From: Microbacteriaceae bacterium 3FA27C10
GTDB taxonomy: Bacteria; Actinomycetota; Actinomycetes; Actinomycetales; Microbacteriaceae
Direction of reading: 5' to 3'
Length of the DNA stretch: 64,000 nucleotides
Assembly (NCBI GenBank): GCA_005502775.1
Contig: SCNI01000016.1
Coordinates: forward strand, 1-64,000
Shown here: in pieces, positions 6,120 through 33,000 of the stretch
Layout: every line of letters starts with the position of its first letter
Position numbering within the stretch: the stretch's first letter is position 1
The notes under the pieces: generated by a model
Databases searched by the model: none
The model's input: the letters and a program-made list of their open reading frames with translations, nothing else
Told to the model about the DNA's origin: nothing
Made by a program: the position numbers and the translations under genes

Positions 6120-7766
6120 TCAGTGCACCCGGCGCCCCGCAAACCAGGTCTCGGACACGACGATCCGGTGGAGGTTCCGGGGCTCGCAGGCGAAGGGATC
6201 CTGGTCGAGCACCACGAAGTCGGCCGACTTTCCGGCGGCCAGTGACCCCGTCTCGGCGCCGAGCCCCATCGAGGTGGCGGCCGAGAGCGTGAAGACGCCG
6301 ATCGCCTCCTCGAGCGTGATCGCCTGCTCCTTCCAGAGGGTTCCGGATGCGCGCCCCAGCGGGTCGGCGCGCGTCACCAGCCCCTCGATCCCCTTCCACG
6401 GGTTCGGCGACTCGCTCACCGGCCAGTCGGAGCCCCCGGCCAGCACCGCCCCGGAGTCGAGCAGCGCCCGGTTGGGCTGCATCCTCGATGCGCGCTCGGC
6501 CGGGAGCACCGCGGCGATGGCGTCGGGGATCACGCCAGGGAACCAGAGGAAGGGCGAGATGTCGGCATCCACGCGCAGCCGGGCGAATCGCGGGATGTCG
6601 GCGTCGGCCACGAACTGGCCGTGGGCGATCTGGTACCGGGCGGTGACTCCTTCGGCGCGGAGCCGCTCCACCACGTCGAGCACCTCCCGGGCCGAGGCGT
6701 CCCCCGTGCAGTGGATCTTCGCCGACAGCCCGCGCCGGGCGGTGCGGTGCAGCCAGTCGTAGAGCTCGTCGGGGGTCATGGTGCTGTGGCCCCGGAAGTG
6801 GTCGCCGTGGGCATCGTCGGCGAGATAGGGCTCAAGGAAGGCGCCCGTGCGCGCCGGCGGCACGCCGTCGAGGAAGATCTTCACGAAGTCGGGCCGGTGG
6901 TGCGTGCTGCGGAACTGCTCGGCGTGCGCGATCAGCTCGTCGCCGACGGGGGAGAAGCCGAAGATCTCGTCGTTGACGAGCACCGAGCTCACGACCCAGG
7001 CGTCGAGTTCGTCGTCGTCGTCGAGCGCCTTCAGGGCCCGGAGGATGTCGAGCGAGGCCGCGGCATCCTGGAACGCCGTCACGCCGAAACCCGACAGCAG
7101 CTCGACGCCCTTCTTCGAGGCGGCGCGGTGCTGGGCGGCGTCCAGACCGCCCGCCCGGGCCTGCACCTCGGCCACCGGGATGCCGGCGGCTTCGAGCAAC
7201 ACCCCGGTCAGCGTCCCCGTGCCCGGATCGCGGAGAGCCACGCCGCCGCCCTCCGGCACGAAGCCGTCGCCGATGCCGGCCAGCGCGAGTGCGCGCGAGC
7301 TCACCCACCGGTTGTGCCGGCTGTCGTCGGCGAGCATCACCGGACGGCCACCGGCGGCGGTGTCGAGCCGGTGCAGGGCATCGGCGGTGGAGATCTCGTC
7401 GAGCAGCGTGCTGCCCCACGCGCCGCCGACCAGCCACTCCTCGGAGCCGAGGGCCGTCGCCCGTTCGCGCACGGCGGCCAGCAGCTCGTCGAGGGAGGCG
7501 GTGGGCGACACCTCCAGCTCGAACAGGGCGCTGCGGCCGGCCAGGGCGTGGTGGTTGTGCACGTCGGCGAACCCCGGCATGGCGAAGGCGCCACCCAGGT
7601 CGACGGCGGCGGCGGTGGGGCCGGCCGCGCGCCGCACCTCGTCGTCGTGCCCGAGCGCGACGATCCGGCCCCCGGACACCGCGAGGGCCTCGACGAACCG
7701 CGGTCCTCCGGGATGGCCGGTGAAGATGCGGCCGCCGGTGAAGACGGTCGTCGTGCCGGCGTTCAC
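6120..7766 (-). CDS. YtcJ-like metal-dependent amidohydrolase
   Basis: A 548-residue amidohydrolase-superfamily enzyme of the YtcJ/exoenzyme-regulatory type. These hydrolyse amide or similar bonds in a TIM barrel with one or two metals. The first metal motif is HNHHAL (family HxH, normally HxHxH/HxHL) within MPGFADVHNHHAL. KIHCTGDAS and YQIAHGQF carry further His ligands, and GGSDWPVS holds the catalytic Asp. The start is a GTG whose last bases overlap the stop of the MoaF-like gene (GTGA), which implies translational coupling. It may cleave an N-acyl or formyl group from an aromatic amine in the neighbouring pathway; that is inference. Confidence 0.88.
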   Translation of the reverse strand: MNAGTTTVFTGGRIFTGHPGGPRFVEALAVSGGRIVALGHDDEVRRAAGPTAAAVDLGGAFAMPGFADVHNHHALAGRSALFELEVSPTASLDELLAAVRERATALGSEEWLVGGAWGSTLLDEISTADALHRLDTAAGGRPVMLADDSRHNRWVSSRALALAGIGDGFVPEGGGVALRDPGTGTLTGVLLEAAGIPVAEVQARAGGLDAAQHRAASKKGVELLSGFGVTAFQDAAASLDILRALKALDDDDELDAWVVSSVLVNDEIFGFSPVGDELIAHAEQFRSTHHRPDFVKIFLDGVPPARTGAFLEPYLADDAHGDHFRGHSTMTPDELYDWLHRTARRGLSAKIHCTGDASAREVLDVVERLRAEGVTARYQIAHGQFVADADIPRFARLRVDADISPFLWFPGVIPDAIAAVLPAERASRMQPNRALLDSGAVLAGGSDWPVSESPNPWKGIEGLVTRADPLGRASGTLWKEQAITLEEAIGVFTLSAATSMGLGAETGSLAAGKSADFVVLDQDPFACEPRNLHRIVVSETWFAGRRVH

Positions 7767-8626
7767 TCCGCGGTCCCGAATCCCTCGGGATACGCCGTGG
7801 TGGAGAGCAGACGGCCGTGGGCTCCGAAGGTGAAGTGCACGTACTCCTCGCCCGAGCTGTCGAGACCGAAGAGCATCCCGTGCGAGCGCAGGCTGTGTGC
7901 GCTGCGGTGGTCGGCCACGGTGACGGAGGCGCAGGGGATGACCTTCTCGCGCCAGGCGAAGAGGTGGATGCCGGGGCGGAGCTGCCACATGGTGCAGGCA
8001 TCCGTGTCGGCGAGCCCGCGCTCGGGGCCGGCCAGGCACTGCCAGGTGTACCACTCGGGGGAGAGGTAGACGTGCTCGTAGGCGTGCTCGGGGCTGTACT
8101 GCCAGAACACACGCCGGCCGAGCAGCTCCGTGGTGGGGTGGGGGCGGGACGACGGATGCGGGCCCACCACGGCCGCGGCGGCATCCGGTCTCCGGCCGGG
8201 CAGCTCCTCGAGCCGCGCGGGCACGACGATCTGCTCGACCCGGGGCACCTGGCCTTCGGGGCCCACGATGCTGATGACGGTGAGCACCTCGCCGGAGCGC
8301 AGGTCGAGCACCAGCGAGACCGCCTCCTCGGGCAGGTGGGCGTGGTGGAACTGCACGTAGTACAGCTCGTCGTCGATCTCGAAGGCCTCGTAGTCGTCGC
8401 TCTTCGACGCGGCCGCGATGGGGTCGCCGGCACCGGGGTGGTAGTCCCAGTCGACGCGGTGCGCGCCGAAGCGGTGCACGATCCGCGTTCCGCGCTCGTC
8501 GGAGACGGTGAGCGTGCGCCCGTCGAGGGCCGTGGTGCGCGGCCCGCGATTGGCGTCGAAGCCGGGGGCGAGGCCGTCGAGCGGCAGCCAGGTGGAGGTG
8601 TCGGAGGGGGTGAGGAGGGCGGTCAT
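7763..8626 (-). CDS. MoaF-like protein, copy 1
   Basis: A 287-residue protein with the two MoaF-type beta-rich (calycin-like) halves. The C-terminal half (about 168-285) has the conserved core YSPEHAYEHVY, WQCLAG and LFAWREKVIPCASV. The name comes from a gene near molybdopterin genes on an Arthrobacter plasmid, but there are no molybdenum-cofactor genes here, so the name gives no function. It is cotranscribed with the amidohydrolase (4-base overlap) and lies beside an aldehyde dehydrogenase. A second member lies at 32158-33000. A role in binding or converting an aromatic intermediate is my inference. Confidence 0.8.
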   Translation of the reverse strand: MTALLTPSDTSTWLPLDGLAPGFDANRGPRTTALDGRTLTVSDERGTRIVHRFGAHRVDWDYHPGAGDPIAAASKSDDYEAFEIDDELYYVQFHHAHLPEEAVSLVLDLRSGEVLTVISIVGPEGQVPRVEQIVVPARLEELPGRRPDAAAAVVGPHPSSRPHPTTELLGRRVFWQYSPEHAYEHVYLSPEWYTWQCLAGPERGLADTDACTMWQLRPGIHLFAWREKVIPCASVTVADHRSAHSLRSHGMLFGLDSSGEEYVHFTFGAHGRLLSTTAYPEGFGTAE

Positions 8627-8657
8627 GGGATTCTCTCTGCTCAGCGGTCGAGCCGGC

Positions 8658-10097
8658 CTAGTAGTGCAGCCAGACCGACTTGACCTCGGTGTAGGCGTCG
8701 ATCGCCCACGGGCCCATCTCGCGGCCCCAGCCCGAGGCCTTGTAGCCGCCCCAGGGCGCGGCCATGTCGGGGATGGGCGGCATGTTCACGAACACGGCCC
8801 CCGCCTTGATGCCGTTGGCCAGGCGCTGGGAGGTGGCGATGTCCTGCGTCCAGATGGTCGCGGCGAGGCCGTACTGCGAGTCGTTGGCCCGCGCGATCAG
8901 GGCGTCGAGCTCGTCGGCGTCGTCGTAGGTGGTGACCGCGAGCACCGGGCCGAAGATCTCCTCGCGGATGATCGTCATGTCGTCGGTGACGCCGGTGAAG
9001 AGCGTCGGCTCGAAGAAGTAGCCCTCGCGATCGGTGCGGTTGCCGCCGGTGACGAGCGCGGCGCCCTCGTCGAGGCCCGAGCGCACCAGGCGCTCGACGT
9101 GCCCGATGTGCTTCTCCGAGACCAGCGGACCGAGGTGCGTCGACTCGTCGAGCCCCGAGCCGAGCACGAGCCCGGAGAGACCGCCCGCGAGCTTGTCCAC
9201 GAACTCCTGCTCGCGCTTCTTGTCGACGTAGAACCGAGTGTAGGCGGCGCAGACCTGGCCGCTGTTGAGGGTCGAGCCCATCAGGTTGCCGCCGACGGCC
9301 GCGTCGATGTCGGCGTCGGCCGCGATGATGCTCGGCGCCTTGCCGCCGAGCTCGAGGGTGAGCCGCTTGAGGTTGGAGTCGGCGCTCGCTTTCGTGATGA
9401 TGCGGCCGACGTTGGTGGAGCCCGTGTACGAGAGGTGGTCGACGTCCATGTGGCTGGAGAGCAGGGCACCGACGTCGCCGCCGCCGGTGACGAGGTTGAT
9501 GACCCCCTGCGGGAAGCCCACCTCGGCAGCCAGCTGCACGAGACGGATGCTCGTGAGCGGCGTGACCTCGCTCGGCTTGATCACGACGGTGTTTCCGGTG
9601 GCGAGCGCCGGAGCGAGCTTCCAGGCGAGGATCATCAGCGGGAAGTTCCAGGGTGTCACGAGCGCGTTCACCCCCACGGGCTCACGGCGCGTGTAGTGCA
9701 GCGTGTCGGGGAACGACACCGGATTGGTGGTGCCCTGGATCTTCGTGACCCAGCCGGCGTAGTAGCGGAAGTGCTCGGCGGCGCCGCTCACGCTCACGGC
9801 CCGCGAGATGCCGAGCGGCTGGCCCTGGTCGAGGGTCTCCAGCCGGGCGAGCTCGTCGGCGTGCGCCTCGATGGCGTCGGCGAGCTTGAAGAGCAGGTGG
9901 GCGCGCTCCACCGGGAGCAGCCCGGCCCACGCGGGGTTGGTCAGGGCGGCACGGGCGGCGCCCACGGCGGCGTCGACGTCGGCCGCCGAGGCGTTGCCGA
10001 CCTCCTCGATGGCGGTGGCGGTGGCGGGGTCGAGGGTCTCGAAGCTTCCGCCGGTGGCTTCCTGCCAGACTCCGTCGATGTACAGGCTCTTGGCCAT
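8658..10097 (-). CDS. Aldehyde dehydrogenase
   Basis: A 479-residue NAD(P)-dependent aldehyde dehydrogenase of the class that oxidises aryl or alkyl aldehydes to acids. Family motifs are VTPWNFPLMI (cofactor loop), FTGSTNVG in the Rossmann region, LELGGKAPS with the catalytic Glu, and NSGQVCAAY with the catalytic Cys. EEIFGPVLAV follows near the end. I placed the start at MAKSLYIDG because AAGGGAG lies 7 bases upstream. It is divergent from the amine permease, and its promoter shares a palindrome with the amine oxidase promoter. It is the likely next step after amine oxidation. Confidence 0.93.
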   Translation of the reverse strand: MAKSLYIDGVWQEATGGSFETLDPATATAIEEVGNASAADVDAAVGAARAALTNPAWAGLLPVERAHLLFKLADAIEAHADELARLETLDQGQPLGISRAVSVSGAAEHFRYYAGWVTKIQGTTNPVSFPDTLHYTRREPVGVNALVTPWNFPLMILAWKLAPALATGNTVVIKPSEVTPLTSIRLVQLAAEVGFPQGVINLVTGGGDVGALLSSHMDVDHLSYTGSTNVGRIITKASADSNLKRLTLELGGKAPSIIAADADIDAAVGGNLMGSTLNSGQVCAAYTRFYVDKKREQEFVDKLAGGLSGLVLGSGLDESTHLGPLVSEKHIGHVERLVRSGLDEGAALVTGGNRTDREGYFFEPTLFTGVTDDMTIIREEIFGPVLAVTTYDDADELDALIARANDSQYGLAATIWTQDIATSQRLANGIKAGAVFVNMPPIPDMAAPWGGYKASGWGREMGPWAIDAYTEVKSVWLHY

Positions 10098-10228
10098 GGT
10101 GTGCTCCCTTGCGCGTGACGAGTGGCGCATCCGGTGCGCCGTCGTTCCAGTGTCTGCATGGCCGCACGGCCCGTGGTTGTCTCAGCGAGCACAGCGGTTG
10201 TGCGAGAGCGCCCGGATGGCCGAGCTGT

Positions 10229-10248
10229 TTGAGCAAGCGCTCGATAAT
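10229..10248 (-). promoter_or_regulatory. Operator-like palindrome, aldehyde dehydrogenase/permease intergenic
   Basis: The top strand reads TTGAGC-N4-GCTCGATAAT. The GAGC-N4-GCTC core is a perfect inverted repeat. Read on the bottom strand, a CATTAT -10-like box is followed directly by the palindrome. The copper amine oxidase promoter at 15127-15146 has the same arrangement. On the top strand GATAAT could serve the permease. The TetR gene at 11869 is the likeliest binder. Confidence 0.6.
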
Positions 10249-10301
10249 GGTGGAGGGCGCGGCAACGAGGCGGCGCCGGAGTCTTTTGGAGGTGCGTCGC
10301 C

Positions 10302-11828
10302 ATGACGAGCACGCAAGCAGCATCCGCCCCGGCGGCATCCGCGACCGGGGTTCCGGCCGAGAGCCGGCGCCGGCTCGGCGTGCCGGCCGTGACGGTGATG
10401 ATCATCGCCGCATCCGCACCGCTCACCGTGCTCGCGGGCGGCGTCACCACGGCGTTCGCCGTCACCGGCGTGATCGGGGTGCCCCTGTCGTACCTGCTGC
10501 TGGGCGTCGTGCTGGCCGTGTTCGCCGTGGGATACGCGGCGATGAGCCGTTACGTCGTGAACGCGGGTGCGTTCTACGCCTACGTGGCGCAGGGGCTCGG
10601 CCGCCCGCTCGGCGTCGGAGCCTCGCTCGTGGCGCTCGTCTCCTACAACGCGATGCAGATCGGCATCTACGGCCTGTTCGGTTTCACCGTGTCGTCGCAG
10701 CTGTCCACCTGGTTCGGCATCACCGTTCCGTGGTGGGTGGCCGTGCTGGTGGGCATCGTCGTGGTGGGCGTGCTCGGCGTGAACCGGGTCGACCTCTCGG
10801 CGAAGGTGCTCGGCGTGCTGGTGGCCCTCGAGTTCGTGGTGGTGATCGTGTTCGACGTGGCCTCGTTCGTGGTGGCGCCCGAGGGGCAGAGCGTGGCCGC
10901 GCTCGACCCGGCGAACCTGTTCGTGCCCGGCATCGGCGCGGTGCTCGCCTTCGGCATCGCCGCGTTCATGGGCTTCGAGTCGGCCGCCATCTACGGCGAG
11001 GAGTCGAAGGACCCGAAGCGCACCGTGGCGCGGGCCACCTACCTGGCCGTCGGCGTCATCGCGATCTTCTACATGATCTCGTCGTGGGCGCTCACCGTGG
11101 GCATCGGCCCGAGTGCCGTGATCGGGGAGTCCGCCACGCAGGGCCCCGACCTGGTCTTCGGCTTCCTCAGCGCACACCTGGGCCAGATCGTGGCCGACCT
11201 CGGGCACGTGCTGTTCATCACGAGCCTCTTCGCGGCCCTGGTGAGCTTTCACAACGCGGTCGCCCGCTACTTCTACTCGCTCGGGCGCGAGGGCGTGCTG
11301 CCCGCTGCGCTCGGCCGGGTGCGGGCACGCAGCGGGGCGCCGATGGTGGGCTCGCTCACGCAGTCGGTGCTCGCCGTGATCGTGATCGCGGCGTTCGCGG
11401 TGGCCGGGGCATCGTGGGTGCCGCCGGAGGGGCTGCCGGTGGAGCTCTTCCCGGTGCTCACCCTGTTCTCCTGGCTCACCAACGCCGGGGCGCTCGGTCT
11501 CGTGCTCCTGATGGCCGTGGTGTCGGTGGCCGTGATCGGCTTCTTCCGGCGCCGGGCCGCGGATGCGGGGATCTGGGCGCGCGTGGTCGCACCGGCTCTC
11601 GCGGCGCTCGCCCTCACCACGGTGCTCGTGCTCATCATCGTGAACTTCAACGTGCTGCTCACGAGCGACCCGACCGCGCCGCCCACCGCGACCACGTTCA
11701 TCCTGCCGGCGATCGTCATCCTGCCCGGTTTCGTGGGCGTCGTCTGGGGCCTCGTGCTGCGCCGCCGTCGCCCGCGGCTGTACGCCCAGATCGGCCACGG
11801 CGCGGAGAAGGCCCCGCTCGAGCCCTGA
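10302..11828 (+). CDS. APC-family amine/amino acid permease
   Basis: A 508-residue membrane protein with about 12 to 14 transmembrane helices. The first begins near residue 29 with the APC-typical VMIIAASAPLTVLAGG. The segment GFESAAIYGEESKDPKRTV (about 222-240) is the conserved loop of amino acid/polyamine/organocation permeases. GGAGGT lies 8 bases before the ATG. It is divergent from an aldehyde dehydrogenase and followed by a TetR gene, and a copper amine oxidase lies 2 kb away. Uptake of a primary amine for that oxidase is the most economical role; the substrate itself cannot be read from the sequence. Confidence 0.9.
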   Translation: MTSTQAASAPAASATGVPAESRRRLGVPAVTVMIIAASAPLTVLAGGVTTAFAVTGVIGVPLSYLLLGVVLAVFAVGYAAMSRYVVNAGAFYAYVAQGLGRPLGVGASLVALVSYNAMQIGIYGLFGFTVSSQLSTWFGITVPWWVAVLVGIVVVGVLGVNRVDLSAKVLGVLVALEFVVVIVFDVASFVVAPEGQSVAALDPANLFVPGIGAVLAFGIAAFMGFESAAIYGEESKDPKRTVARATYLAVGVIAIFYMISSWALTVGIGPSAVIGESATQGPDLVFGFLSAHLGQIVADLGHVLFITSLFAALVSFHNAVARYFYSLGREGVLPAALGRVRARSGAPMVGSLTQSVLAVIVIAAFAVAGASWVPPEGLPVELFPVLTLFSWLTNAGALGLVLLMAVVSVAVIGFFRRRAADAGIWARVVAPALAALALTTVLVLIIVNFNVLLTSDPTAPPTATTFILPAIVILPGFVGVVWGLVLRRRRPRLYAQIGHGAEKAPLEP

Positions 11829-11868
11829 TCGGGCCGTGATCGGCCCCCGGAACCGGGAGAATGGTGCC

Positions 11869-12495
11869 GTGCCCAAGATCGTCGACCGTGAGAAGCGCCG
11901 CACCGAGATCGTCGACGCCTACCTGCGGGTGCTCGCGCGCGACGGCGGCAGGGCCGGCACCAGCCGGGCCGTCGCAGCCGAGCTCGGCGTGGCCACCGGG
12001 TCGCTCTGGCACTACTTCGACGACTTCGACGGCATGCTGGCGGCGGCGTTCCGGAGGGTGTACGAGAACACCACGGCGCGCATCGAGGAGCGCACGGCCG
12101 GGATGCGCGGCCTCCCCGCCCTCGAGGCCGCCGTGCGCGAGATGCTCCCGCTCGAGCGGGTGACGGAGGAGGAGGCCGCCGTCGTGGTGACCTTCTGGGG
12201 CCGCGTCGCGACCGAGCCGCAGATGGGGGAGACCCAGGCCGAGGTGGAGCGCCGCTGGGGCGCGTTGCTCACCGGGCACGCCCGCGAGGCGATCGACGAC
12301 GGCGAGCTGCGGGGCGACACCCCGGTGGCCGACCTCGTCGACACCCTGCTGGTGCTCACGGCGGGGCAGCAGGTGGAATACGTCGTGCGCACCTCCATCG
12401 GGGCTGCGGCCCGGCAGTGGTCGCTCGTGGAGCACGCCCTGCGCCCCTGGCGCACCGCGCCGGCCTCGCGCCGACCCGCCGGCAGTGCCCGGTGA
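11869..12495 (+). CDS. TetR family regulator, probable amine-catabolism repressor
   Basis: A 208-residue TetR regulator. The helix-turn-helix lies at about 10-55 (SRAVAAELGVATGSLWHYF), followed by a helical ligand domain. I chose the GTG at 11869, which has GGGAG 9 bases upstream; an in-frame start further up would overlap the permease terminus more closely. The C-terminus is Arg/Pro-rich. Its place just after the permease suggests it senses the amine or its aldehyde. It would then act at the shared GAGC-N4-GCTC sites before the aldehyde dehydrogenase/permease and amine oxidase genes; this link is inference. Confidence 0.85.
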   Translation: MPKIVDREKRRTEIVDAYLRVLARDGGRAGTSRAVAAELGVATGSLWHYFDDFDGMLAAAFRRVYENTTARIEERTAGMRGLPALEAAVREMLPLERVTEEEAAVVVTFWGRVATEPQMGETQAEVERRWGALLTGHAREAIDDGELRGDTPVADLVDTLLVLTAGQQVEYVVRTSIGAAARQWSLVEHALRPWRTAPASRRPAGSAR

Positions 12496-12504
12496 TCGGG
12501 CGCG

Positions 12505-13059
12505 TCAGGCGAAGACCATCGCGCCCATGGTGCCGAGGCAGAGGCCCATGCTGAGGCATTCGATGCCCGGTCCCAGGCGGCGGGAGCGCAGCAGCCGCAC
12601 GCCGAGCAGCACCGCGATCGTGAGGGCGAGCGCCCCGAGGGTGAACGCGGCGCCGGCTGCGGGCACGGCGAGCGCATGGTGGCCTCCCGGCACCGCCGGG
12701 ACCGTCGCAGTGGCAGCGGCCGCCGAAGCTGTCGACGTGACCGCCGGTGCGGCGGCGGCGGAGGTCATCAGCAGCAGGAAGGCCATCGCGATGCCCAGGA
12801 CGGCCCGGGGGACGGCGGCCCCGCGCCCGGTCGCCGCACCCGCGACCGACGCGACGACGAGCGCCACCACCAGCATCAGGAGTCCCGTCGCCCCCAACGG
12901 CGCACCGGCCCCGATCGCGCCGAGCGCGTGAGCGAGCATCGCCCCGGCCATCACCGCGGCCTGCACGACGGCCATCCGGCCCGCCCGCGGCGTCAGCCCC
13001 GTGGCGACGAGGCCGACCACCGCGGCCGCGGCCATCGACACGGCGAGGAGGGCGTGCAT
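12505..13059 (-). CDS. Membrane protein next to copper amine oxidase (DUF5134-like)
   Basis: A 184-residue protein with five or so hydrophobic segments and almost no soluble part, beginning MHALLAVSMAAAAVVGL. It has scattered Met and His (AVMAGAMLAHALGA, GGHHALAVP), which could bind copper. It may belong to the actinobacterial DUF5134 group, but I am not certain. The start lies only 9 bases after the amine oxidase stop on the same strand, so the two are cotranscribed. A role in copper supply to the oxidase is possible but unproven. Confidence 0.72.
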   Translation of the reverse strand: MHALLAVSMAAAAVVGLVATGLTPRAGRMAVVQAAVMAGAMLAHALGAIGAGAPLGATGLLMLVVALVVASVAGAATGRGAAVPRAVLGIAMAFLLLMTSAAAAPAVTSTASAAAATATVPAVPGGHHALAVPAAGAAFTLGALALTIAVLLGVRLLRSRRLGPGIECLSMGLCLGTMGAMVFA

Positions 13060-13068
13060 CCGCCCGGC

Positions 13069-15108
13069 TCAGTGCTCGTGCGGGGCGTGTCCGCCTGGAG
13101 CAGGATCGTGGCCGACCTCGCCGGCCGCAGCGATGACGGGCTCGACGCCGTGACTGCCGTGGTCGTGACCGGCGTGGTCGTGACCGCCGTGGTCGTGGCC
13201 GGGGGCGCAGTGACCGGCCGGCGTGGCGGGAACGTCGAGCGTGGGGTTGCGGTCGAAGAAGCCGTGCGGTTTGAGCGTGAAGCCGGCGTAGTCGACGGGC
13301 ATGATCGGCCAGTCCTCCAGGCGCGGGAAATGCGTGAGGCCGAAGGTGTGCCACACCACGAGGTCCTGCCCGTCGATGTCGCGGTCGGCCTCCACGTACG
13401 ACGGCAGCCCGGCGCCGCCCGGATGTTGGTTCACAGTGCGTCCCGCCGCCCAGAGCTGCTCGCGGTCGTAGCGGCTCACCCAGAGGTGGTGGGTGGCGAA
13501 TCCCGCCCGGGACCGGGCCGAGGAGTCGTCGCTCGAGACCAGCGTCGGCGTGCCCTGGGGAAACAGCACATACGAGGTCGGCTCGCCCATGCGGTTGCGC
13601 TCGGTGGCCGAACTGATGCGCCAGACGCGCCCGGCGAGCGGGTCGGCGTCGCGCACCGCGGCCTTCTCGGTGCCCAGACGCGTGATCGTGCGGGTGAAGG
13701 CGTTGCCCCAGGGGTTGCCCGGGCCCGAGGCCACCCGCGCCACGTCGATCTCGTCGACCGCGTTGAGGTCGCCGTCGACCGCCATGTCGAGCCGGGCGCT
13801 GAACAGGTGCTGGTGCACCGGCGCGCCGAGGCCCGGGGCGAGCAGGGTGGCGTAGGGGTAGTCGCCGCCCGGGTGCCCCGAGGTGAACACGATTCCGGTG
13901 GCCTTGGCCTCGAGCGAGATCGTGCCGTCGAGGGACAGGTACCAGTAGAACCCGTAGTCGTAGTTGCCCACCGTCACGAAGAACGAGATGACCAGCCGTC
14001 GCTGCCGGCGGGTCTCGGAGGTTCCGGCGAATTCGTCGTTGTGCTTCCAGAGGATGCCGTAGTCCTCCTCGTGGATGCAGATCGCGTTGCGGATGGTCTT
14101 CGGAGCGCCGAGGTCGTCGGCCACCACGGCGTCGAGGTAGGTGATGTCGCCGAGGCAGTCGCAGCCGAGCTCCAGGGAGTTCGCGAGCCGCCCGAACTGG
14201 TACTCGCCCACGTCGAAGTAGTTCTGCCAGGCGTGCGTCGGGGTGGGGTCGCCGTAGTTCACGACCATCTCGGAGACGGAGGCCCGGGTGATGATCGGCC
14301 GGAGGCGGCCACGGTCGACGAAGCCGAGATCGTGCAGCGTCAGCCCCTCGCGCCCGTTGAAGCCGAGCCGCACCTGCCAGCCCTCCCAGGAGAGCACGTC
14401 GTCGTCGAGCGAGAACGACACCCCCTCGGGCTGCGTGATGCTGATGGGCTTGAGGCTGGTGCGCTCGGGCCCGCGCACGGCGGGGTCGAGGTAGTCGCCC
14501 GACTCCTGCGGCACGTGCACCACCTCGGTCTCCACCAGACGCAGGACCGTGCCGTTCGTCACGTCGACGTGGGCGACGACGCCGTCGATCGGATGCGCCC
14601 AGGCCAGATCGCGCGGATGCTCCTGCCAGAAGGCGAGCGCCCGGAACACCCGGTGCCCGACCTCGTCGTCGTAGCCGAAGACGCCCGCCGAGAGGGCGAC
14701 GACGCGCACCCGGTCGAGGTCGGTGACCCCGCGGCGGGCGAGCGCCTCGATCCAGGGGGAGTGCGCCTTGAGGAGCCCCTCCGCGGTGGCGAAGTCCTCG
14801 TCGAAGGTGGGCCCCCAGCCGTCGCGCGCCGGATCGAGCTCGCGCACCGCGGTGACCACGCCCTCGTCCAGCGACACCACGACATCCCGGAGCCTGGGCC
14901 CGCCTTCGGCGGCGAGGTCGGTGAGCAGCACGCCCGCCTCCCGGGGGACGGATGCTCCCGAACGCACGAGTGCCTTGTCGGGCTCGCGCACCGCGAGGTA
15001 GGAGTAGCGCACGCCGCTGCCGCCGAGACCGGCCTCCTCGACGGCGCCGCGCACGGCGTCGATCTCGGCGGCGGAGAGCGAGGAGCGGAGTCGGGACGAG
15101 TCGGCCAT
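13069..15108 (-). CDS. Copper-containing primary-amine oxidase (TPQ enzyme)
   Basis: A 679-residue copper amine oxidase: R-CH2-NH2 + O2 + H2O gives aldehyde, NH3 and H2O2. The topaquinone precursor is Tyr383 in TVGNYDYG. The copper ligands are His432 and His434 (VHQHLF) and His593 (GLTHFP), and the catalytic base is Asp299 (NYFDVGEYQFG). All five sit one residue after their counterparts in Arthrobacter globiformis phenylethylamine oxidase, so a close relative acting on arylalkylamines is likely. Unlike that enzyme it has a C-terminal extension (about 633-679) with 12 His, including HDHGGHDHAGHDH. AAGGA precedes the ATG. It is cotranscribed with a small membrane protein. Confidence 0.95.
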   Translation of the reverse strand: MADSSRLRSSLSAAEIDAVRGAVEEAGLGGSGVRYSYLAVREPDKALVRSGASVPREAGVLLTDLAAEGGPRLRDVVVSLDEGVVTAVRELDPARDGWGPTFDEDFATAEGLLKAHSPWIEALARRGVTDLDRVRVVALSAGVFGYDDEVGHRVFRALAFWQEHPRDLAWAHPIDGVVAHVDVTNGTVLRLVETEVVHVPQESGDYLDPAVRGPERTSLKPISITQPEGVSFSLDDDVLSWEGWQVRLGFNGREGLTLHDLGFVDRGRLRPIITRASVSEMVVNYGDPTPTHAWQNYFDVGEYQFGRLANSLELGCDCLGDITYLDAVVADDLGAPKTIRNAICIHEEDYGILWKHNDEFAGTSETRRQRRLVISFFVTVGNYDYGFYWYLSLDGTISLEAKATGIVFTSGHPGGDYPYATLLAPGLGAPVHQHLFSARLDMAVDGDLNAVDEIDVARVASGPGNPWGNAFTRTITRLGTEKAAVRDADPLAGRVWRISSATERNRMGEPTSYVLFPQGTPTLVSSDDSSARSRAGFATHHLWVSRYDREQLWAAGRTVNQHPGGAGLPSYVEADRDIDGQDLVVWHTFGLTHFPRLEDWPIMPVDYAGFTLKPHGFFDRNPTLDVPATPAGHCAPGHDHGGHDHAGHDHGSHGVEPVIAAAGEVGHDPAPGGHAPHEH

Positions 15109-15126
15109 GGCGGCATCCTTCTTTTG

Positions 15127-15146
15127 TTGAGCGGTTGCTCGATAAT
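15127..15146 (-). promoter_or_regulatory. Operator-like palindrome in copper amine oxidase promoter
   Basis: The top strand reads TTGAGC-N4-GCTCGATAAT, matching the site at 10229-10248 at every position outside the 4-base spacer. On the bottom strand, TATTAT (15147-15142) makes a -10 box, and the palindrome covers the expected start point about 20 bases before the amine oxidase ATG. This is the position of a repressor site. Confidence 0.6.
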
Positions 15147-15188
15147 AAACGTCCAGGAGCGTTCGCGCCAGAGTCGATCAACGCTGAT

Positions 15189-15216
15189 TTGTTTCGTACT
15201 CTAAATCGTATATTAT
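15189..15216 (+). promoter_or_regulatory. Probable promoter of the MHS transporter
   Basis: TTGTTT (15189-15194) and TATTAT (15211-15216), spaced by 16 bases, lie in an unusually AT-rich stretch about 80 bases before the transporter ATG. The boxes match housekeeping -35/-10 elements well for this GC-rich genome. Confidence 0.45.
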
Positions 15217-15296
15217 CTATCGGACAGCGCACCGTCCTTCCTCGTGGAGGGAGCACGGGGCGGACGACGAGGTCGCAGTACGAAGGAGTACGACGC

Positions 15297-16670
15297 ATGA
15301 GCGCAACCGGGTTCACTCCCACGGGATCATTGGCCGCGGTCGCAGACCGCCGCCGGGTGGTCTTCGCCACGATCATCGGCACGACCGTGGAGTGGTACGA
15401 CTTCTTCATCTACGCCTCGGCGGCCGCCCTGGTGTTCGGTCAGCTGTTCTTCAAGCCCGCGGGGGAGCAGGCCGCCATCCTGCTCTCGTTCGCCACCGTC
15501 GGCGTGAGCTTCTTGTTCCGCCCGCTCGGCGCCTTCCTCGCCGGGCACTTCGGCGACAAGTACGGGCGCCGCGTGGTGCTCGTGCTCACCCTCGTGCTGA
15601 TGGGCACGGCGACCGCCTTGATCGGCCTCCTGCCGACCTTCGCGCAGATCGGCGTCGCGGCGCCGCTCCTGCTGATCTTCCTGCGCATCGTGCAGGGCAT
15701 CTCGGCCGGCGGCGAGTGGGGCGGCGCGGTGCTGATGGCGGTCGAGCACGCCCCCACCAAGAAGCGCGGCCTCTTCGGCGCCGCCCCCCAGCTCGGTGTG
15801 CCGCTCGGTCTGCTGCTCGCCTCGGGCGTGATGGCGCTGATGGCCGTGATCGCGCCGGGAGACGCCTTCCTCGAGTGGGGCTGGCGCGTGCCGTTCCTGC
15901 TCAGCGTCGTGCTCATCCTCATCGGCTACTGGGTGCGCCGCCGGGTGGAGGAGAGCCCGGTGTTCGCCGAGCTCGCCGCGCGCAAGGAGAAGGCGCGCAT
16001 GCCGATCGTGCAGCTGTTCAAGAAGCACCTGCTGCTCGTGATCGTCGCCGCGCTCGTCTTCGCCGGCAACAACGCCGTGGGCTACATGACCACCGGCGGC
16101 TACATCCAGAACTACGCCACCAACCCCGACGGGCCGATCGGCCTCGAGCGCGGACCAGTGCTCTGGGCCGTGGCCGGCAGCGCGGTCACCTGGCTGCTGT
16201 CGACCTTCTTCGCGGGCTGGATCTCCGACCGAATCGGCCGCCGCACCACCTACATCGTGGGCTGGGTGCTGCAGCTCGTGGGGGTGTTCGCGTTGTTCCC
16301 GCTGGTGAACACCGGCACGGTCGGCGGCCTGTTCGCCGGCGTCGCCGTGCTCACCATCGGGCTCGGCTTCACCTACGGGCCCCAGGCGGCGCTGTACTCC
16401 GAGCTCTTCCCGGCCTCGATCCGCTTCTCCGGCGTCTCGATCTCCTACGCGATCGGCGCCATCCTCGGTGGCGCCTTCGCCCCCACGATCGCCACGGCGC
16501 TCGTTCAGGCGACCGGCACCACGCTGTCGGTGACCTGGTACCTGGTGGGCATGACGCTCGTGGGCCTCGTGGCGACGCTGCTCCTGCGCGACCGCAGCGG
16601 CATCCCGCTCGGCCCCGACCACGAGGCCGAGCAGGCGGCGAGCCCGCTCCGCGGAACCCGGCGCGCCTGA
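15297..16670 (+). CDS. MFS transporter, metabolite:H+ symporter (MHS) family
   Basis: A 457-residue transporter with 12 predicted membrane helices. The MHS family is recognisable from TTVEWYDFFIYASAAAL at the start of helix 1, GHFGDKYGRR between helices 2 and 3, and RIVQGISAGGEWGGAVL. GWRVPFL follows helix 6. Members carry organic acids such as shikimate, benzoate-type acids, proline or alpha-ketoglutarate with protons. GAAGGAG lies 8 bases before the ATG. It lies between the amine oxidase and the aromatic-degradation regulator, so an aromatic acid or amine breakdown product is a reasonable substrate guess. Confidence 0.9.
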   Translation: MSATGFTPTGSLAAVADRRRVVFATIIGTTVEWYDFFIYASAAALVFGQLFFKPAGEQAAILLSFATVGVSFLFRPLGAFLAGHFGDKYGRRVVLVLTLVLMGTATALIGLLPTFAQIGVAAPLLLIFLRIVQGISAGGEWGGAVLMAVEHAPTKKRGLFGAAPQLGVPLGLLLASGVMALMAVIAPGDAFLEWGWRVPFLLSVVLILIGYWVRRRVEESPVFAELAARKEKARMPIVQLFKKHLLLVIVAALVFAGNNAVGYMTTGGYIQNYATNPDGPIGLERGPVLWAVAGSAVTWLLSTFFAGWISDRIGRRTTYIVGWVLQLVGVFALFPLVNTGTVGGLFAGVAVLTIGLGFTYGPQAALYSELFPASIRFSGVSISYAIGAILGGAFAPTIATALVQATGTTLSVTWYLVGMTLVGLVATLLLRDRSGIPLGPDHEAEQAASPLRGTRRA

Positions 16671-16681
16671 TCGCCCGCTGT

Positions 16682-17419
16682 TCAGCCGCCGAGGGCGGCG
16701 CGGATGACGGCTGCGGAGTCGAGGAGCCGGGCGGCGACGGAGGCGGCGTCGCGGTCGGTGGGGAGATACACGGCCGCGAGCGCCGCCGGCGCCCGCCCGC
16801 GCAGCACGAGCGGCACCGCCACCGCGTGCAGGCTCGGGATGACCTCGTTCTGGCTCTCGGCCCAGCCGCGCACCACCGCCTCGTGCACCTCTCCGGCGAG
16901 GGCGGCGGTGACATCGGAGGGCCAGTCGCTGGCGGGCAGTTGCGTGAGGATCGCCTTGCCGGGAGCGCCGACCGACACCGGATGCCGCGTGCCCGGCCGC
17001 TGGGCCACCGTCGCCACGGCGTGCCTCGGCTCCACGCTGGCCAGGGTGACGCACTCCTCGTGGTCGAGCACGACGAGGAAGCAGGTCATGCCGAGCTCGT
17101 TGGCGGCGGCCGTGAGCTCGGGCAGCGCCTCGGCCTGCAGGTCGTGCGCCACACCGGCGGCGAGCGCGGCCAGGCGGGCGCCCAGCCGGATGGCGCCGGT
17201 GGGTTCGCGCTCGACGAGACCGTGGGCCTCGAGCGTGCGGATCAGCCGGTAGGCCACCGAGCGGTGCACGCCGAGCGCGCCGGCGGTCTCGTCGATGGTG
17301 AGGGGGCGGCGCGCGTCGGCGAGCACCTCCAGGATGCGGATGCCGCGGCTGAGGGTCTGCGACGCGGGCCCGGTCGCGGGTGCCTCCGCGGCATCCGGCG
17401 TGCTCTGATTCGTGGTCAT
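16682..17419 (-). CDS. IclR family transcriptional regulator
   Basis: A 245-residue IclR regulator. The N-terminal winged helix-turn-helix spans about 22-80 (TIDETAGALGVHRSVAYRLIRTL), followed by an effector domain with the usual GxPGKAILTQLP stretch (SVGAPGKAIL). IclR proteins commonly sense aromatic acids and control their catabolism. The start at MTTNQ has GGAG upstream. It is divergent from the MobA-like monooxygenase, with a clear palindrome in between at 17482-17502, so control of that gene is likely. Confidence 0.92.
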   Translation of the reverse strand: MTTNQSTPDAAEAPATGPASQTLSRGIRILEVLADARRPLTIDETAGALGVHRSVAYRLIRTLEAHGLVEREPTGAIRLGARLAALAAGVAHDLQAEALPELTAAANELGMTCFLVVLDHEECVTLASVEPRHAVATVAQRPGTRHPVSVGAPGKAILTQLPASDWPSDVTAALAGEVHEAVVRGWAESQNEVIPSLHAVAVPLVLRGRAPAALAAVYLPTDRDAASVAARLLDSAAVIRAALGG

Positions 17420-17481
17420 GACAGCGCTCCGTTGCATTCGGAATCGGGTTCGGGTTACTCTCGAATCCAATAGTAGAACGT

Positions 17482-17502
17482 TGTGTTCACTATTAGAACA
17501 CA
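17482..17502. promoter_or_regulatory. Inverted repeat in IclR/monooxygenase divergent region
   Basis: Perfect 7-base arms, TGTGTTC and GAACACA, are separated by ACTATTA. A further partial copy, AGTAGAAC, lies directly upstream (17472-17479). The size and AT-rich centre fit an IclR-family binding site, about 50 bases before the monooxygenase start and 60 before the IclR start. Confidence 0.5.
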
Positions 17503-17554
17503 CCTTCCGACGCGGATGTCGGGGGCGAGTCGATGAAGACACGTGAGGAATCCC

Positions 17555-19447
17555 ATGCAGTTCCACCACCACGGCTATGTGTCCGGCGATCCGCGGGTGA
17601 GCCCCGCCGCCGGAACCGGTCTCGACCGGCCGGCCGAGCTCCCCGACGAGGTCGACGTGCTGATCGTGGGCGCCGGACCGGCCGGAATGATCCTGGCCGC
17701 CCAGCTCTCCCAGTTCCCCGAGATCACCACTCGGCTCGTCGAGCGCCGCCCCGGGCGTCTCGCCATCGGCCAGGCCGACGGCATCCAGGCCCGCAGCGTC
17801 GAGACCTTCCAGGCCTTCGGCTTCGCCGGGCGCATCACCGACGAGGCGTACCGCATCACCGAGATGGCCTTCTGGGGCCCGGATGCGGCTGACCCGACGA
17901 GGATCGTGCGCACCGACCGCGCGGTCGACGACGCCACCGGTGTGAGCGAGTTCCCGCACCTCATCGTGAACCAGGCCCGTGTGCTCGACTACTTCGCCGA
18001 GGTGATGGCCGACTCCCCGTCGCGCATGACACCCGACTTCGGACTCGAGTTCGTTGGCCTCGAGGTGGCCGAGGAGGGGGAGTTCCCCGTCTCGGTGACG
18101 CTCCGCGAGACGGCCGGGCCGCGCGAGGGACAGGAGCGCCGGGTGCGCGCCAAGTACGTGGTGGGCTGCGACGGAGCCCGCAGCGGTGTGCGCGAGGCGA
18201 TCGGCCGCAGCCTCGTCGGAGCCTCGGCGGCGCACGCCTGGGCGGTGATGGACACGCTCGCCGTCACCGACTTCCCCGACATCCGCACCAAGTGCGCCAT
18301 CCAGTCGCAGGCCGGGAGCATCCTGCACATCCCGCGCGAGGGTGGCCACCTGTTCCGCATGTACGTCGACCTCGGCGAGGTCGCGCCCGGAGACAACGGC
18401 GCGGTGCGGCAGACGAGCGTCGAGACGGCGATCGCCAAGGCGAACGAGATCCTGCACCCGTACACGCTCGACGTGAAGAACGTGGCCTGGTACAGCGTCT
18501 ACGAGGTGGGCCACCGGCTCACCGACAAGTTCGACGAGGTGCCGGAGGGCGACGACCGCTGCCCGCGCGTGTTCATCACGGGCGACGCCTGCCACACCCA
18601 CAGCGCCAAGGCCGGGCAGGGCATGAACGTGTCGATGCAGGACGGCTTCAACCTCGGCTGGAAGCTCGCGCACGTGCTCACCGGTCGCAGCTCGGCGGAA
18701 TTGCTGAAGACCTATTCGGCCGAACGCCAGGTGATCGCCAAGAACCTCATCGACTTCGACCGCGAGTGGTCGACCCTCATGGCCAAGAAGCCCGAGGAGT
18801 TCCAGAGCCCGCACGAGCTGGGTGAGTTCTACGTGCGCACCGCCGAGTTCCCGGCCGGGTTCATGACCGAGTACGCGCCATCGATGCTCGTGGGCGAGGC
18901 GACCCACCAGGGGCTCGCCACGGGGTTCCCGATCGGCAAGCGCTTCAAGTCGGCTCCCGTCGTGCGGGTGGCCGACGGCAACCCCGTGCACCTCGGGCAC
19001 CACCACCGCGCCGACGGCCGGTGGCGGCTCTACGCCTTCCCTGGTGCCGCCGCGGCCGCGAGCGGCGATCGCGACTTCGAGGAATGGGCTGCCTGGCTCG
19101 AGAGCTCGCCGGAGTCACCGGTGCGCGCCTACACGCCCGAGGGCGCCGACCTCGACAGCCTGTTCGACGTGAAGGTGGTGTACCCGCAGGCGCACACCGA
19201 GGTCGGGATCGGAGCGGTGCCGCCCGTGTTCCTGCCGCGCACGGGGCCGTTCGGCCTGATCGACTACGAGAAGGTGTACGCGGCCGCCCCGGATGACGAC
19301 ATCTTCGCCCTGCGCGGCATCGACCGCGGCTCCGGATGCGTCGTCGTCGTTCGCCCCGACCAGTACGTCGCGCACGTGCTGCCCCTCACCGCCACGAGCG
19401 AACTCGCCGCCTTCTTCGCCGCCAACCACCTCAGGCACCGCGGATGA
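17555..19447 (+). CDS. 3-hydroxybenzoate 4-monooxygenase-like flavoprotein (MobA type)
   Basis: A 630-residue FAD-dependent aromatic hydroxylase of the phenol 2-monooxygenase group. It has the FAD motif VGAGPAG (38-44), the DG motif GCDGARSGVREAIG (204-217), the GD motif FITGDACHTH and a C-terminal thioredoxin-like domain from about 460. It aligns from the first residues (MQFHHHGYVSGDPRV) with Comamonas MobA, which makes protocatechuate from 3-hydroxybenzoate. Asp75, His135, Lys246 and Tyr270 match the residues I recall lining the MobA substrate pocket. GAGGAA precedes the ATG. In this hpa context the real substrate might be 3-hydroxyphenylacetate instead. Its 3' end overlaps the convergent ThDP gene by 17 bases. 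Confidence 0.88.
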   Translation: MQFHHHGYVSGDPRVSPAAGTGLDRPAELPDEVDVLIVGAGPAGMILAAQLSQFPEITTRLVERRPGRLAIGQADGIQARSVETFQAFGFAGRITDEAYRITEMAFWGPDAADPTRIVRTDRAVDDATGVSEFPHLIVNQARVLDYFAEVMADSPSRMTPDFGLEFVGLEVAEEGEFPVSVTLRETAGPREGQERRVRAKYVVGCDGARSGVREAIGRSLVGASAAHAWAVMDTLAVTDFPDIRTKCAIQSQAGSILHIPREGGHLFRMYVDLGEVAPGDNGAVRQTSVETAIAKANEILHPYTLDVKNVAWYSVYEVGHRLTDKFDEVPEGDDRCPRVFITGDACHTHSAKAGQGMNVSMQDGFNLGWKLAHVLTGRSSAELLKTYSAERQVIAKNLIDFDREWSTLMAKKPEEFQSPHELGEFYVRTAEFPAGFMTEYAPSMLVGEATHQGLATGFPIGKRFKSAPVVRVADGNPVHLGHHHRADGRWRLYAFPGAAAAASGDRDFEEWAAWLESSPESPVRAYTPEGADLDSLFDVKVVYPQAHTEVGIGAVPPVFLPRTGPFGLIDYEKVYAAAPDDDIFALRGIDRGSGCVVVVRPDQYVAHVLPLTATSELAAFFAANHLRHRG

Positions 19448-32157: not shown

Positions 32158-33000
32158 ATGGCCGACATCTCCGAACGCCTCGACGCGGCAGGCGACGAGT
32201 GGCGCAGTTACGACGAGTTCGCCGCCGGCATCGATGCCTATCGGCTGCCGCCGCTCGACCTGGCCGGCCGGCGCCTCGAGCTCGCGCTCGACGACGGCGG
32301 ATCGCTCACCGTCGATTTCGGCGACGGCGGATCGGCGCACTGGTCGTGGTCGCAGCCCGGCGTCACCGGGGCGTCGCCGGGCACCGACCCCTACGACGCC
32401 GTGCAGGTGCGCCCCGGCGTCGTGTTCGTGAACCTCGAGCTCACGAGCCGCGAGAGCGAGGCCGTGACCCTCGTCTGGTCGACGGCGACGAACCGCGCGC
32501 TCGTGGCGCATTCGCGCATCCGGAGCGTCAAGGAGTCGGCCGCCGACGGCGAACCGCGGGTGACGCAGTCCTTCCGGGCCGCCGTACTGACCGCCACCGA
32601 GTCGGGGCCTGCCTCCGCGCCGCGGGGCGACGCGCCCGCGCCGTCGCGCGACCTCATCGGCAGGCGCAACGTCTACCGCTACAGCCCCGACCACCTCTAC
32701 GAGCACACGTACATGTCGTCGGAGCGCTACATGTGGCAGTGCCTGCAAGGCGTGCAGCGAGGGCACGGCGACGTCGACCGATCCACCGTGTGGCGGTTCG
32801 ACCAGGGCCTCTACCTGTTCTGCTTCCGCGAGTTCAAGATCGCCGTGGCGAGCGTGTGGCTGCACGATCTCGGCTACGAGCTGCGCACCACGGGCGTCTT
32901 CCTCGGCCTCACCGCCGAGGGGCGCGCCGAGCACTCGCGCGCCGGCGGCCACATCTACCCGCTCGGTGCCGTCGTGTACCCCGACGTGCAGCCGGTCTGA
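32158..33000 (+). CDS. MoaF-like protein, copy 2
   Basis: A 280-residue homologue of the protein at 7763-8626. The N-terminal halves have diverged. The C-terminal halves (from about residue 166) share YSPDHLYEHTY, WQCLQGVQRG, a Trp/Gly-rich stretch ending LFCFREFKIAVASV, and LRTTGVFLGL. GAAGGGA lies 8 bases before the ATG. It is followed after 9 bases by a SnoaL-like gene, probably on one transcript, and it is divergent from a GMC oxidoreductase. The molybdenum-based name is not supported by anything here. Binding or rearrangement of an aromatic intermediate is inference. Confidence 0.8.
   Translation: MADISERLDAAGDEWRSYDEFAAGIDAYRLPPLDLAGRRLELALDDGGSLTVDFGDGGSAHWSWSQPGVTGASPGTDPYDAVQVRPGVVFVNLELTSRESEAVTLVWSTATNRALVAHSRIRSVKESAADGEPRVTQSFRAAVLTATESGPASAPRGDAPAPSRDLIGRRNVYRYSPDHLYEHTYMSSERYMWQCLQGVQRGHGDVDRSTVWRFDQGLYLFCFREFKIAVASVWLHDLGYELRTTGVFLGLTAEGRAEHSRAGGHIYPLGAVVYPDVQPV

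Follow-up and report, generated by a model that had tools for sequence, protein, structure and literature searches.

Does a palindrome that occurs twice among amine genes mark the operators of the TetR-type regulator encoded between its copies, and which genes would it then control? The question arose from a sequence-only reading of a 64,000-nucleotide stretch of DNA from Microbacteriaceae bacterium 3FA27C10 (the window), which described one operator-promoter module in front of both an aldehyde dehydrogenase (ALDH) and a copper amine oxidase (CuAO) and named the TetR gene at 11869 as the obvious regulator. The two 20-mers lie where they had been placed, share the shape TTGAGC-N4-GCTCGATAAT and differ solely in the 4-base spacer. 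They are set among the following features:

8658..10097, minus strand: aldehyde dehydrogenase (ALDH), phenylacetaldehyde dehydrogenase-like but below equivalog cutoffs (Pfam and NCBIfam)
10229..10248: candidate operator 1, TTGAGC-AAGC-GCTCGATAAT, lying between ALDH and APC, with the APC-TetR operon as its best assignment
10243..10248, plus strand: probable −10 GATAAT of the APC-TetR promoter, inside the outer arm of operator 1
10302..11828, plus strand: APC-family amine or amino-acid permease (Pfam AA_permease)
11869..12495, plus strand: TetR regulator with a BetI-type C-terminal domain (Pfam TetR_N and TetR_C_6)
13069..15108, minus strand: copper amine oxidase (CuAO; primary-amine oxidase, AGAO-like), PF01179 and NF008559 above cutoff
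15127..15146: candidate operator 2, TTGAGC-GGTT-GCTCGATAAT, 18 nt 5′ of the CuAO start
15142..15147, minus strand: probable −10 TATTAT of the CuAO promoter, read from the sequence, overlapping the outer arm of operator 2
15297..16670, plus strand: MFS transporter, divergent from CuAO, 154 nt from operator 2
16682-17419: IclR protein, encoded 1.5 kb from site 2

Ten proteins encoded between 6120 and 19447 were scanned (an amidohydrolase, MoaF, ALDH, APC, TetR, one without a match, CuAO, MFS, IclR and a phenol hydroxylase). The APC permease gene lies 40 bp upstream of the TetR gene on the shared strand, and the two are probably one operon. The C terminus of the CuAO is rich in histidine, as seen in its translation. 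A −35-like TGGCGC at 15165-15170 stands 17 nt upstream of the CuAO −10 candidate, and both TATTATCGAGCAA at the CuAO promoter and CGCTCGATAATGG upstream of APC are conserved in Herbiconiux sp. nzgw89, of the same genus. Each of these −10 candidates is a putative promoter element.

The element is rare. In the 4.0-Mb genome (4,006,742 bases) GAGC-N4-GCTCGATAAT occurs at these two places only, and the 18-base pattern GAGCNNNNGCTCGATAAT, searched with 0 mismatches, has two matches in the window (starts 10231 and 15129), which are also its two matches in the genome. A looser symmetric pattern of 22 bases, allowed up to 3 mismatches, adds a single place, C38:160858 (3 mismatches). Elsewhere the exact 18-mer was found in one of 15 other genus members and in five of the 292 genomes of the family that lie outside the genus, with one copy each. 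It is too strict for relatives, because their sites mostly lack the CGATAAT end, and was replaced by the symmetric core in the search for relatives.

The regulator belongs to the TetR family by its TetR_N helix-turn-helix (PF00440, 28.5 bits against a cutoff of 24). In an AlphaFold2 model (mean pLDDT 90), used for helix positions only, helices are found at residues 32-39 and 43-46, and from general knowledge of the family we take VATGSLWHYF at residues 41-50 to hold the recognition helix (model helix 43-46). The protein is BetI-like but falls well below the BetI equivalog cutoff in its best NCBIfam match, TIGR03384 (50.9 against 201.3 bits), and likewise in NF001978 (BetI; 45.4 against 118 bits); identity to BetI of E. 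coli K-12 is 27% over 135 aligned positions.

TetRs carrying G(S/A/G)LWH(Y/S)F were treated as having the same helix type. Upstream of TetR, CuAO or APC, the palindrome TTGAGC-N4-GCTCAA is present with at most 2 mismatches at 46 of 60 such loci, and with at most 1 mismatch at 43 of 60, the loci not being independent and many being Microbacterium. Shuffled target regions yielded 0/1200 (at most 1 mismatch) and 5/1200 (at most 2). No site with at most 2 mismatches was found at TetR, CuAO or APC in the 64 loci with other helices, comprising 21 and a further 43 held-out loci. For the held-out set 51 loci were taken, of which 8 were removed because they were nearly identical to loci in use or duplicated them; because no TetR of class I, the first of the helix types set out below, remained in it, this set serves only as a negative control for class I and as a check of class III. 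Over 81 loci (the window and 80 others) the core had 73 matches in the 47,377 bp that precede TetR, CuAO or APC against 5 in 933,150 bp elsewhere, the core having been widened on these same loci. The consensus was in general refined on the very loci that were later counted, the exceptions being the hexamer count, the held-out test and four genomes of the family scan. In the hexamer count, which covered 23 loci with the window, L054 and L060 left out, all 4096 hexamers were compared as half-sites around N4: TTGAGC gave 28 target and 2 other matches, and any other hexamer at most 2 in targets.

The element lies 12 to 250 nt from the starts of TetR, CuAO and APC, sometimes between divergent genes. 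Seven of the 14 same-helix loci without an operator (2 mismatches allowed; searched within 300 bp of TetR, CuAO or APC) are Actinoplanes, and two of the 14, L062 and L069, have a perfect operator elsewhere with no CuAO, APC or TetR start nearby. With these 14 exceptions among 60, the palindrome stands near promoters and tracks its regulator in evolution, as expected for the TetR family. Over 77 sites the operator has an A/T-rich outer arm; these sites were picked by at most 1 core mismatch, with two degenerate Herbiconiux sp. nzgw89 sites added by hand, so that the core letter frequencies are high by construction and the outer arm and the RNNY spacer alone are free of this choice. The sequence-only reading had taken ATAAT at each copy for a bottom-strand −10 box. 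As a −10 box only this does not stand, ATAAT corresponding to the outer arm of the operator, while an overlap of operator and −10 may exist.

Within the genus 2 of 16 genomes have the TetR orthologue and these same 2 the exact motif, and CuAO homologues (E up to 1e-100) occur in 10 of 16; the motif therefore follows the TetR and not the enzyme. Among 299 family genomes a match is present in 6 of the 7 with such a TetR versus 26 of the 292 others (Fisher p 6e-6), and when three genomes with a previously seen matching site are left out, 3 of 4 match (p 0.003). Remote matches stand directly before APC, 16 kb from such a TetR (G185), and directly before CuAO, 42 kb away (G176). Putative far targets are present in two of the four blind genomes, in which the site had not been seen beforehand, and a plausible transporter in a third; G131 has no scan-pattern match in its whole genome. 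Family genomes without a known same-type TetR hold 29 matching places, including perfect palindromes in G208 and G075, and a CuAO or APC homologue was found within 1.5 kb at 0 of 25 examined matches in such genomes. The G075 palindrome adjoins a TetR with a different helix, GVASGLITHY (locus L193), and the palindrome is thus not exclusive to this clade.

The operator changes with the recognition helix. The helix xxGxLWHYF goes with TTGAGC-N4-GCTCAA, xPGTLWHYF with ATTGAC-N6-GTCAAT and xANGxLK-YF with TTCTCTAC-N4-GTAGAGAA. The operators of classes II and III come from the same loci that were used for the series and were read by a de novo best-palindrome listing that served no other purpose and was noisy because GC-rich palindromes outscored operators; on held-out loci class III was found at 7 of 29 with at most 2 mismatches. 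The odds appear even that, throughout this BetI-like TetR clade for CuAOs across Actinomycetota, the N-terminal residues of the recognition helix go with different operators, making the operator predictable from a few residues. The three operator types offer a natural series for the study of how the TetR recognition helix relates to DNA specificity.

The assignment of the copy at 15127 to the amine oxidase was upheld when orthologous promoters were compared, operator 2 being kept in Herbiconiux sp. nzgw89 as TTTAGCGATTGCTCGATAAT. We consider it unlikely, in contrast, that both copies are bottom-strand promoter-operator modules for ALDH and CuAO, two consecutive enzymes. It is true that the ALDH start is 131 nt downstream of the site at 10229, that the region is divergent and that CATTAT precedes the site on the bottom strand; a repressor there could act on both divergent genes. 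In Herbiconiux sp. nzgw89, however, the operator core (L053, 9151-9166) ends 55 nt before the APC ATG (9222), whereas the ALDH, 92% identical over 237 residues in L054, starts at 5581, about 3.6 kb away, and has no operator within 400 bp. The DNA upstream of ALDH is conserved with that genome for about 110 nt, and the homology stops before the operator. Of the 24 loci among 81 that have an ALDH homologue, one alone, the window itself, has a site in the 400 bp upstream of ALDH. On these grounds ALDH was rejected as the target of operator 1, and since the Herbiconiux operator is with APC, site 1 would best fit the divergent APC-TetR operon. The MFS gene at 15297 is a possible second target of operator 2, though an unsupported one; among the sites listed, a site near an MFS gene of this type occurs only in the two Herbiconiux loci.

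It is improbable that the palindrome is the operator of some other regulator, such as the nearby IclR protein or a distant TetR. The short distance of the IclR gene from site 2 and the same palindrome beside the L193 TetR would speak for this, but among the 45 loci whose site has no more than 1 mismatch an IclR homologue accompanies only one, again the window (DNA up to about 12.6 kb per locus), and the operator varies in step with the TetR helix. Action in RNA, as an attenuator or the site of an RNA-binding protein, is more improbable still: a hairpin with a 6-bp stem and a 4-base loop could form, yet its stem letters should vary in pairs, while TTGAGC is the only hexamer frequent in targets, and the position of the element relative to gene starts, at times between divergent genes, also argues against it. 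Chance, or recent duplication of one promoter, is hardly credible. Repetition by itself is unremarkable, because 43 words of the same 6-N4-10 shape repeat on one strand of the window; two of these are near-palindromic, namely the TTGAGC/GCTCGATAAT word and a GC-rich word (47222, 59388), whose copy at 47222 falls inside long open frames. There is no sign of recent duplication, since the 40-base flanks of the two sites are identical in just 12 and 13 of 40 columns, and the element accompanies the same genes in many genera.

The most plausible reading, to which we assign a probability of about 0.86, is that the two copies are TetR operators which control the CuAO and APC-TetR promoters by repression that an amine or aldehyde releases. 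The BetI-like TetR at 11869-12495 very probably has the palindrome as its operator; the rarity of the palindrome in the genome and its recurrence at TetR, CuAO and APC of same-helix loci agree with the operator character first proposed for both sites, and comparative evidence makes this TetR the likely regulator, as had been suggested. A TetR dimer would bind about 20-22 bp of the form wTTGAGC-RNNY-GCTCAAw, in which the outer arms are A/T-rich. At site 2 the bound protein would overlap the probable CuAO −10 and transcription start, and at site 1 the probable promoter of the APC permease and TetR, which would result in autoregulation. When amine is absent the protein, presumably a repressor rather than an activator, would keep both promoters off, and a substrate amine or its aldehyde product may free the repressor and turn on uptake and oxidation together.

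For amine degradation in Actinomycetota, this analysis puts forward a regulator together with an operator and a small regulon; a description of this amine regulator and operator was not found in the open-access literature searched. Its strictness lets the operator point to far targets, so that it can help to annotate amine genes, and the TetR-operator pair could become an amine biosensor. Many related soil bacteria carry the putative switch next to the same genes.

The BetI system resembles the present one in several respects. Pfam names the C-terminal domain of the window TetR BetI-type, and the intergenic ATTGA-N8-TCAAT of E. coli betI-betT, which we take to be the place where BetI binds, equals the outer frame of the family operator ATTGAGC-N4-GCTCAAT. 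The family consensus has this frame, and the window sites (TTTGA...TCGAT and GTTGA...TCGAT) are two letters off. The published BetI1 site ATTGACG*CGTCAAT (PMC12442346) is close to the class II operators of the present loci. The logic is also alike, with a transporter and an oxidising enzyme under one local repressor. The systems differ in that the inner letters of the present operator are GC..GC and its targets are CuAO and an APC permease, not choline genes. No choline dehydrogenase is among the ten proteins scanned (6120-19447), and the score of the ALDH does not reach the BADH cutoff (484.6 against 668.6), so that the genomic association of BetI is not seen here.

A TetR repressor beside its divergent target, as in the '200 bp' rule (PMC3511530), is the arrangement of the TetR-tetA type. 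Rathayibacter (L065) and Glaciihabitans (L060) conform to it, with an operator between divergent TetR and APC genes. In the window, by contrast, TetR is downstream of APC on the shared strand, and from the end of the TetR gene it is another 2.6 kb to the second site. In enteric bacteria, amine oxidase genes are controlled by FeaR (tynA-feaB) and, in Klebsiella, by MoaR, which are AraC- and LuxR-type activators. These systems comprise the same kinds of enzyme, CuAO and a phenylacetaldehyde dehydrogenase-like ALDH, and the window cluster includes a MoaF homologue, but the regulator here is a TetR-type protein and presumably a repressor.

The sequence TTGAGC-N4-GCTCGATAAT was read at 10229-10248 (site 1) and at 15127-15146 (site 2), and the identical module that the sequence-only reading had placed at these two positions is thereby confirmed. 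The derived motif GAGCN4GCTCGATAAT is matched exactly twice in the window, and a search of the whole genome of 4,006,742 bases likewise gave exactly two matches, so that the motif is not frequent, and a 22-base symmetric pattern with up to three mismatches adds a single place (C38:160858). The two sites do not resemble copies of one promoter, since their 40-base flanks are identical in just 12 and 13 of 40 columns. Repetition of gapped words is nothing unusual in this GC-rich window, where 43 of the same shape were counted, and weight was therefore placed on the palindrome, its genome-wide rarity and its conservation. At 25154-25190 the hexamer CCCAGA is repeated in a short run.

Genes around the two sites, annotated by Pfam and NCBIfam
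6120-, minus strand, amidohydrolase
7763-8626, minus strand, MoaF
8658-10097, minus strand, aldehyde dehydrogenase (ALDH), phenylacetaldehyde-dehydrogenase-like
10302-11828, plus strand, APC-family permease (APC)
11869-12495, plus strand, TetR regulator
12505-13059, minus strand, protein without Pfam or NCBIfam match
13069-15108, minus strand, copper amine oxidase (CuAO)
15297-16670, plus strand, MFS symporter
16682-17419, minus strand, IclR regulator
17543-19447, plus strand, phenol 2-monooxygenase

Site 1 is flanked by ALDH and APC, and site 2 by CuAO and the MFS gene. The window encodes another MoaF homologue at 32197-32985, which shares 33% identity with the first, and two are likewise found in G013, the genome of a relative in the same genus, probably Herbiconiux. 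The C-terminal end of CuAO carries a His-rich tail (HDHGGHDHAGHDHGSHG, within 13069-13190), to our knowledge an unusual feature for a copper amine oxidase and possibly involved in copper binding. Upstream of the MFS gene there is an A/T-rich block in the window (15185-15230), and there are TTCGATAATCGAA-like repeats in G013 (locus L053, 16180-16225); these may possibly be sites for an IclR-type regulator.

Comparison with G013 bears on which gene is served by site 1. The proteins are closely related (TetR 86%, APC 89% and CuAO 84% identical; ALDH 92% over the 237 residues present in locus L054), and the ALDH and APC starts (L053 5581 and 9222) are about 3.6 kb apart, with an IclR homologue within the separating DNA. 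The G013 operator core (9151-9166, inside GTTTCTGAGCATCCGCTCGATAAT) ends 55 nt ahead of the APC start, and no site was found in the 400 bp upstream of ALDH. When the upstream regions of window and G013 are aligned, the ALDH match extends for about 110 nt and ends short of the operator, and the APC match is best at the operator and continues to the ribosome-binding site; upstream of CuAO, TATTATCGAGCAA is kept amid diverged surroundings. From the G013 layout and these alignments, site 1 is assigned as a putative operator of APC-TetR and site 2 as that of CuAO. The earlier proposal that the modules face ALDH and CuAO is thus supported for CuAO but not for ALDH, and among the orthologous promoters of G013 the site is preserved at APC and CuAO and absent from the 400 bp upstream of ALDH. 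An ALDH homologue is present in 24 of 81 loci (the window and the best 80 loci), and the window alone has a site in the 400 bp upstream of that gene. The ALDH upstream DNA that is kept in G013 (10098-10215), including TTGTCTC and TTGTGC blocks, probably represents a promoter of its own under different control.

That the TetR encoded at 11869 is the regulator, as the sequence-only reading had it, is supported by four comparative tests: genus co-occurrence, locus counts, sorting by recognition helix and a family scan. Among 16 genus genomes, two have a TetR orthologue (E up to 1e-30), the same two have the exact motif, and ten have CuAO homologues (E up to 1e-100); the second CuAO of the window genome (C56) has no site by the exact motif or the 22-base symmetric pattern. 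For the locus counts, the best 80 loci with TetR homologues from named genomes were combined with the window. A core widened after inspection of these same loci, T[TC]GA[GT]C-N4-G[AC]TC[AG]A, gave 73 matches in target DNA, defined as the 300 bp ahead of TetR, CuAO or APC and amounting to 47,377 bp, versus 5 in the 933,150 bp outside it, with a target match in 44 of the 81 loci. Because the core had been widened in this way, each of the 4096 hexamer half-sites was tested at N4 spacing with no prior choice, omitting the window, L054 and L060; TTGAGC gave 28 target and 2 other matches in 23 loci of the best-80 set, and every other half-site at most 2 target matches.

The TetRs sort by recognition helix. 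Among the 60 loci with the class I helix G[SAG]LWH[YS]F, many of which are Microbacterium and hence not independent, the operator TTGAGC-N4-GCTCAA was found with up to one mismatch in 43 and up to two in 46 (shuffled regions: 0/1200 and 5/1200). It is also present in Nesterenkonia, Rathayibacter, Actinoplanes or Paractinoplanes, Actinotalea, Blastococcus, Kineococcus and Glaciihabitans among the loci listed. With up to two mismatches it was found in none of the 21 loci with other helices and in none of 43 held-out loci, none of which bears a class I helix. The class II helix PGTLWHYF goes with ATTGAC-N6-GTCAAT (up to one mismatch in 3/3 loci versus 0/60 of class I, 10 of which have it with two mismatches). 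Class III ([FY]A[NH]G) goes with TTCTCTAC-N4-GTAGAGAA, found with up to two mismatches in 9/17 loci and, in held-out class III loci, in 7/29 (9/29 with up to three); with up to four it is absent from all 60 class I loci. This last operator precedes amine oxidase genes in some Arthrobacter, Streptomyces and related loci beside FANG-type TetRs (L116-L132; held-out L138-L162, upstream of CuAO and TetR).

The class I link is imperfect, and the palindrome is also found with another type of TetR: in at least one case, locus L193 of another family member (~1500), a perfect ATTGAGCACTCGCTCAAT palindrome stands beside a TetR with the helix GVASGLITHY. Moreover, 14 of the 60 class I loci, 7 of them Actinoplanes, lack an operator with up to two mismatches in the target regions. 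Two of these (L062, L069) have a perfect operator elsewhere, distant from the TetR, CuAO and APC starts, two (L082, L095) have one off-target widened-core match each, and ten have no widened-core match. L071 and L095 belong to genomes (G176 and G185, respectively) with remote sites, as recovered by scanning 299 family genomes with WTTGAGCRNNYGCTCRAW. Matches occurred in 32 genomes: 6 of 7 with a class I TetR, typing being limited to the 30 loci returned by the family search, and 26 of the remaining 292 (Fisher p 6e-6). A matching site had previously been seen in three of the six (G000, G188, G268), and of the other four class I genomes three have a match (p 0.003). The match lies 42 kb from the TetR gene directly upstream of CuAO in G176, and 16 kb from it directly upstream of an APC permease (59% identical to that of the window) in G185. 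In G245 it falls between an amidohydrolase (44% identical to the window's) and, by eye, an ABC-type substrate-binding gene, which it precedes (L210 4172-4274); perhaps the transporter type has been exchanged. G131, also with a class I TetR, has no scan-pattern match genome-wide. In the other 26 genomes there are 29 distinct matches, of which 25 were examined; the 1.5 kb around each of these contains no CuAO or APC homologue, and one of them is the L193 palindrome.

Operator anatomy was derived from 77 sites in 46 loci, picked for up to one core mismatch and supplemented manually by two degenerate G013 sites. The half-site letters (T 99%, T 86%, G 99%, A 100%, G 85%, C 100%) are high through this selection. 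After the half-site comes a purine (A in 38%, G in 62%), and the outer arm, outside the selection, has T in 86% at −2 and A or T in 98% at −3; from these frequencies the spacer reads RNNY, and the ATAAT common to the two sites corresponds to the outer arm. The −10 box that had been proposed as common to both promoters is accordingly part of the putative operator, but at CuAO the arm does overlap a good −10, TATTAT, and 18 nt separate the end of the core from the start codon. A TetR dimer bound there would cover the transcription start and would thus be expected to repress. Within 400 bp upstream, sites were tallied for TetR (35), CuAO (33), APC (12) and ALDH (1, the window), with 2 near MFS genes, both in Herbiconiux, a single site between divergent genes being able to enter the tally for both; a further three sites are not close to any of these genes. 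An nAnnnT element (GAGAAT, CAGGAT and similar) stands 5-7 nt ahead of the TetR start in 47 of 60 class I homologues by raw count (window 11857-11869; L054-L133), a position that would fit a leaderless promoter.

Local TetR repressors that regulate themselves are very common. Among the open-access papers listed, to which the search was confined, none was found to describe this regulator or operator, and the novelty lies in the proposed assignment of regulator, operator and regulon and in the three-way correspondence of helix and operator. By sequence, the solved structure nearest to the window TetR is 2nx4, whose title says no more than TetR-family regulator. Among characterised proteins its nearest relative is BetI, which is the best NCBIfam match (50.9 bits against a cutoff of 201.3), and the window TetR is 27% identical to E. 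coli BetI. The E. coli betI-betT region contains ATTGA-TTGGACGT-TCAAT, which we take to be the BetI binding site. The window TetR appears to be BetI-like in its working, with a perhaps related operator frame, and yet not a BetI, because neither its equivalog score nor its gene neighbourhood is that called for in one. By analogy with BetI, which responds to choline (PMC8249747, PMC12442346), the effector would most likely be the amine imported and oxidised by the cluster, or its aldehyde. The box given for BetI1 in PMC12442346 is ATTGACG*CGTCAAT, and near to it are the ATTGAC-N6-GTCAA-like operators that accompany the PGTLWHYF helix in Pseudolysinimonas and Leifsonia loci and in L046 (L103, L104, L110, L044, L046).
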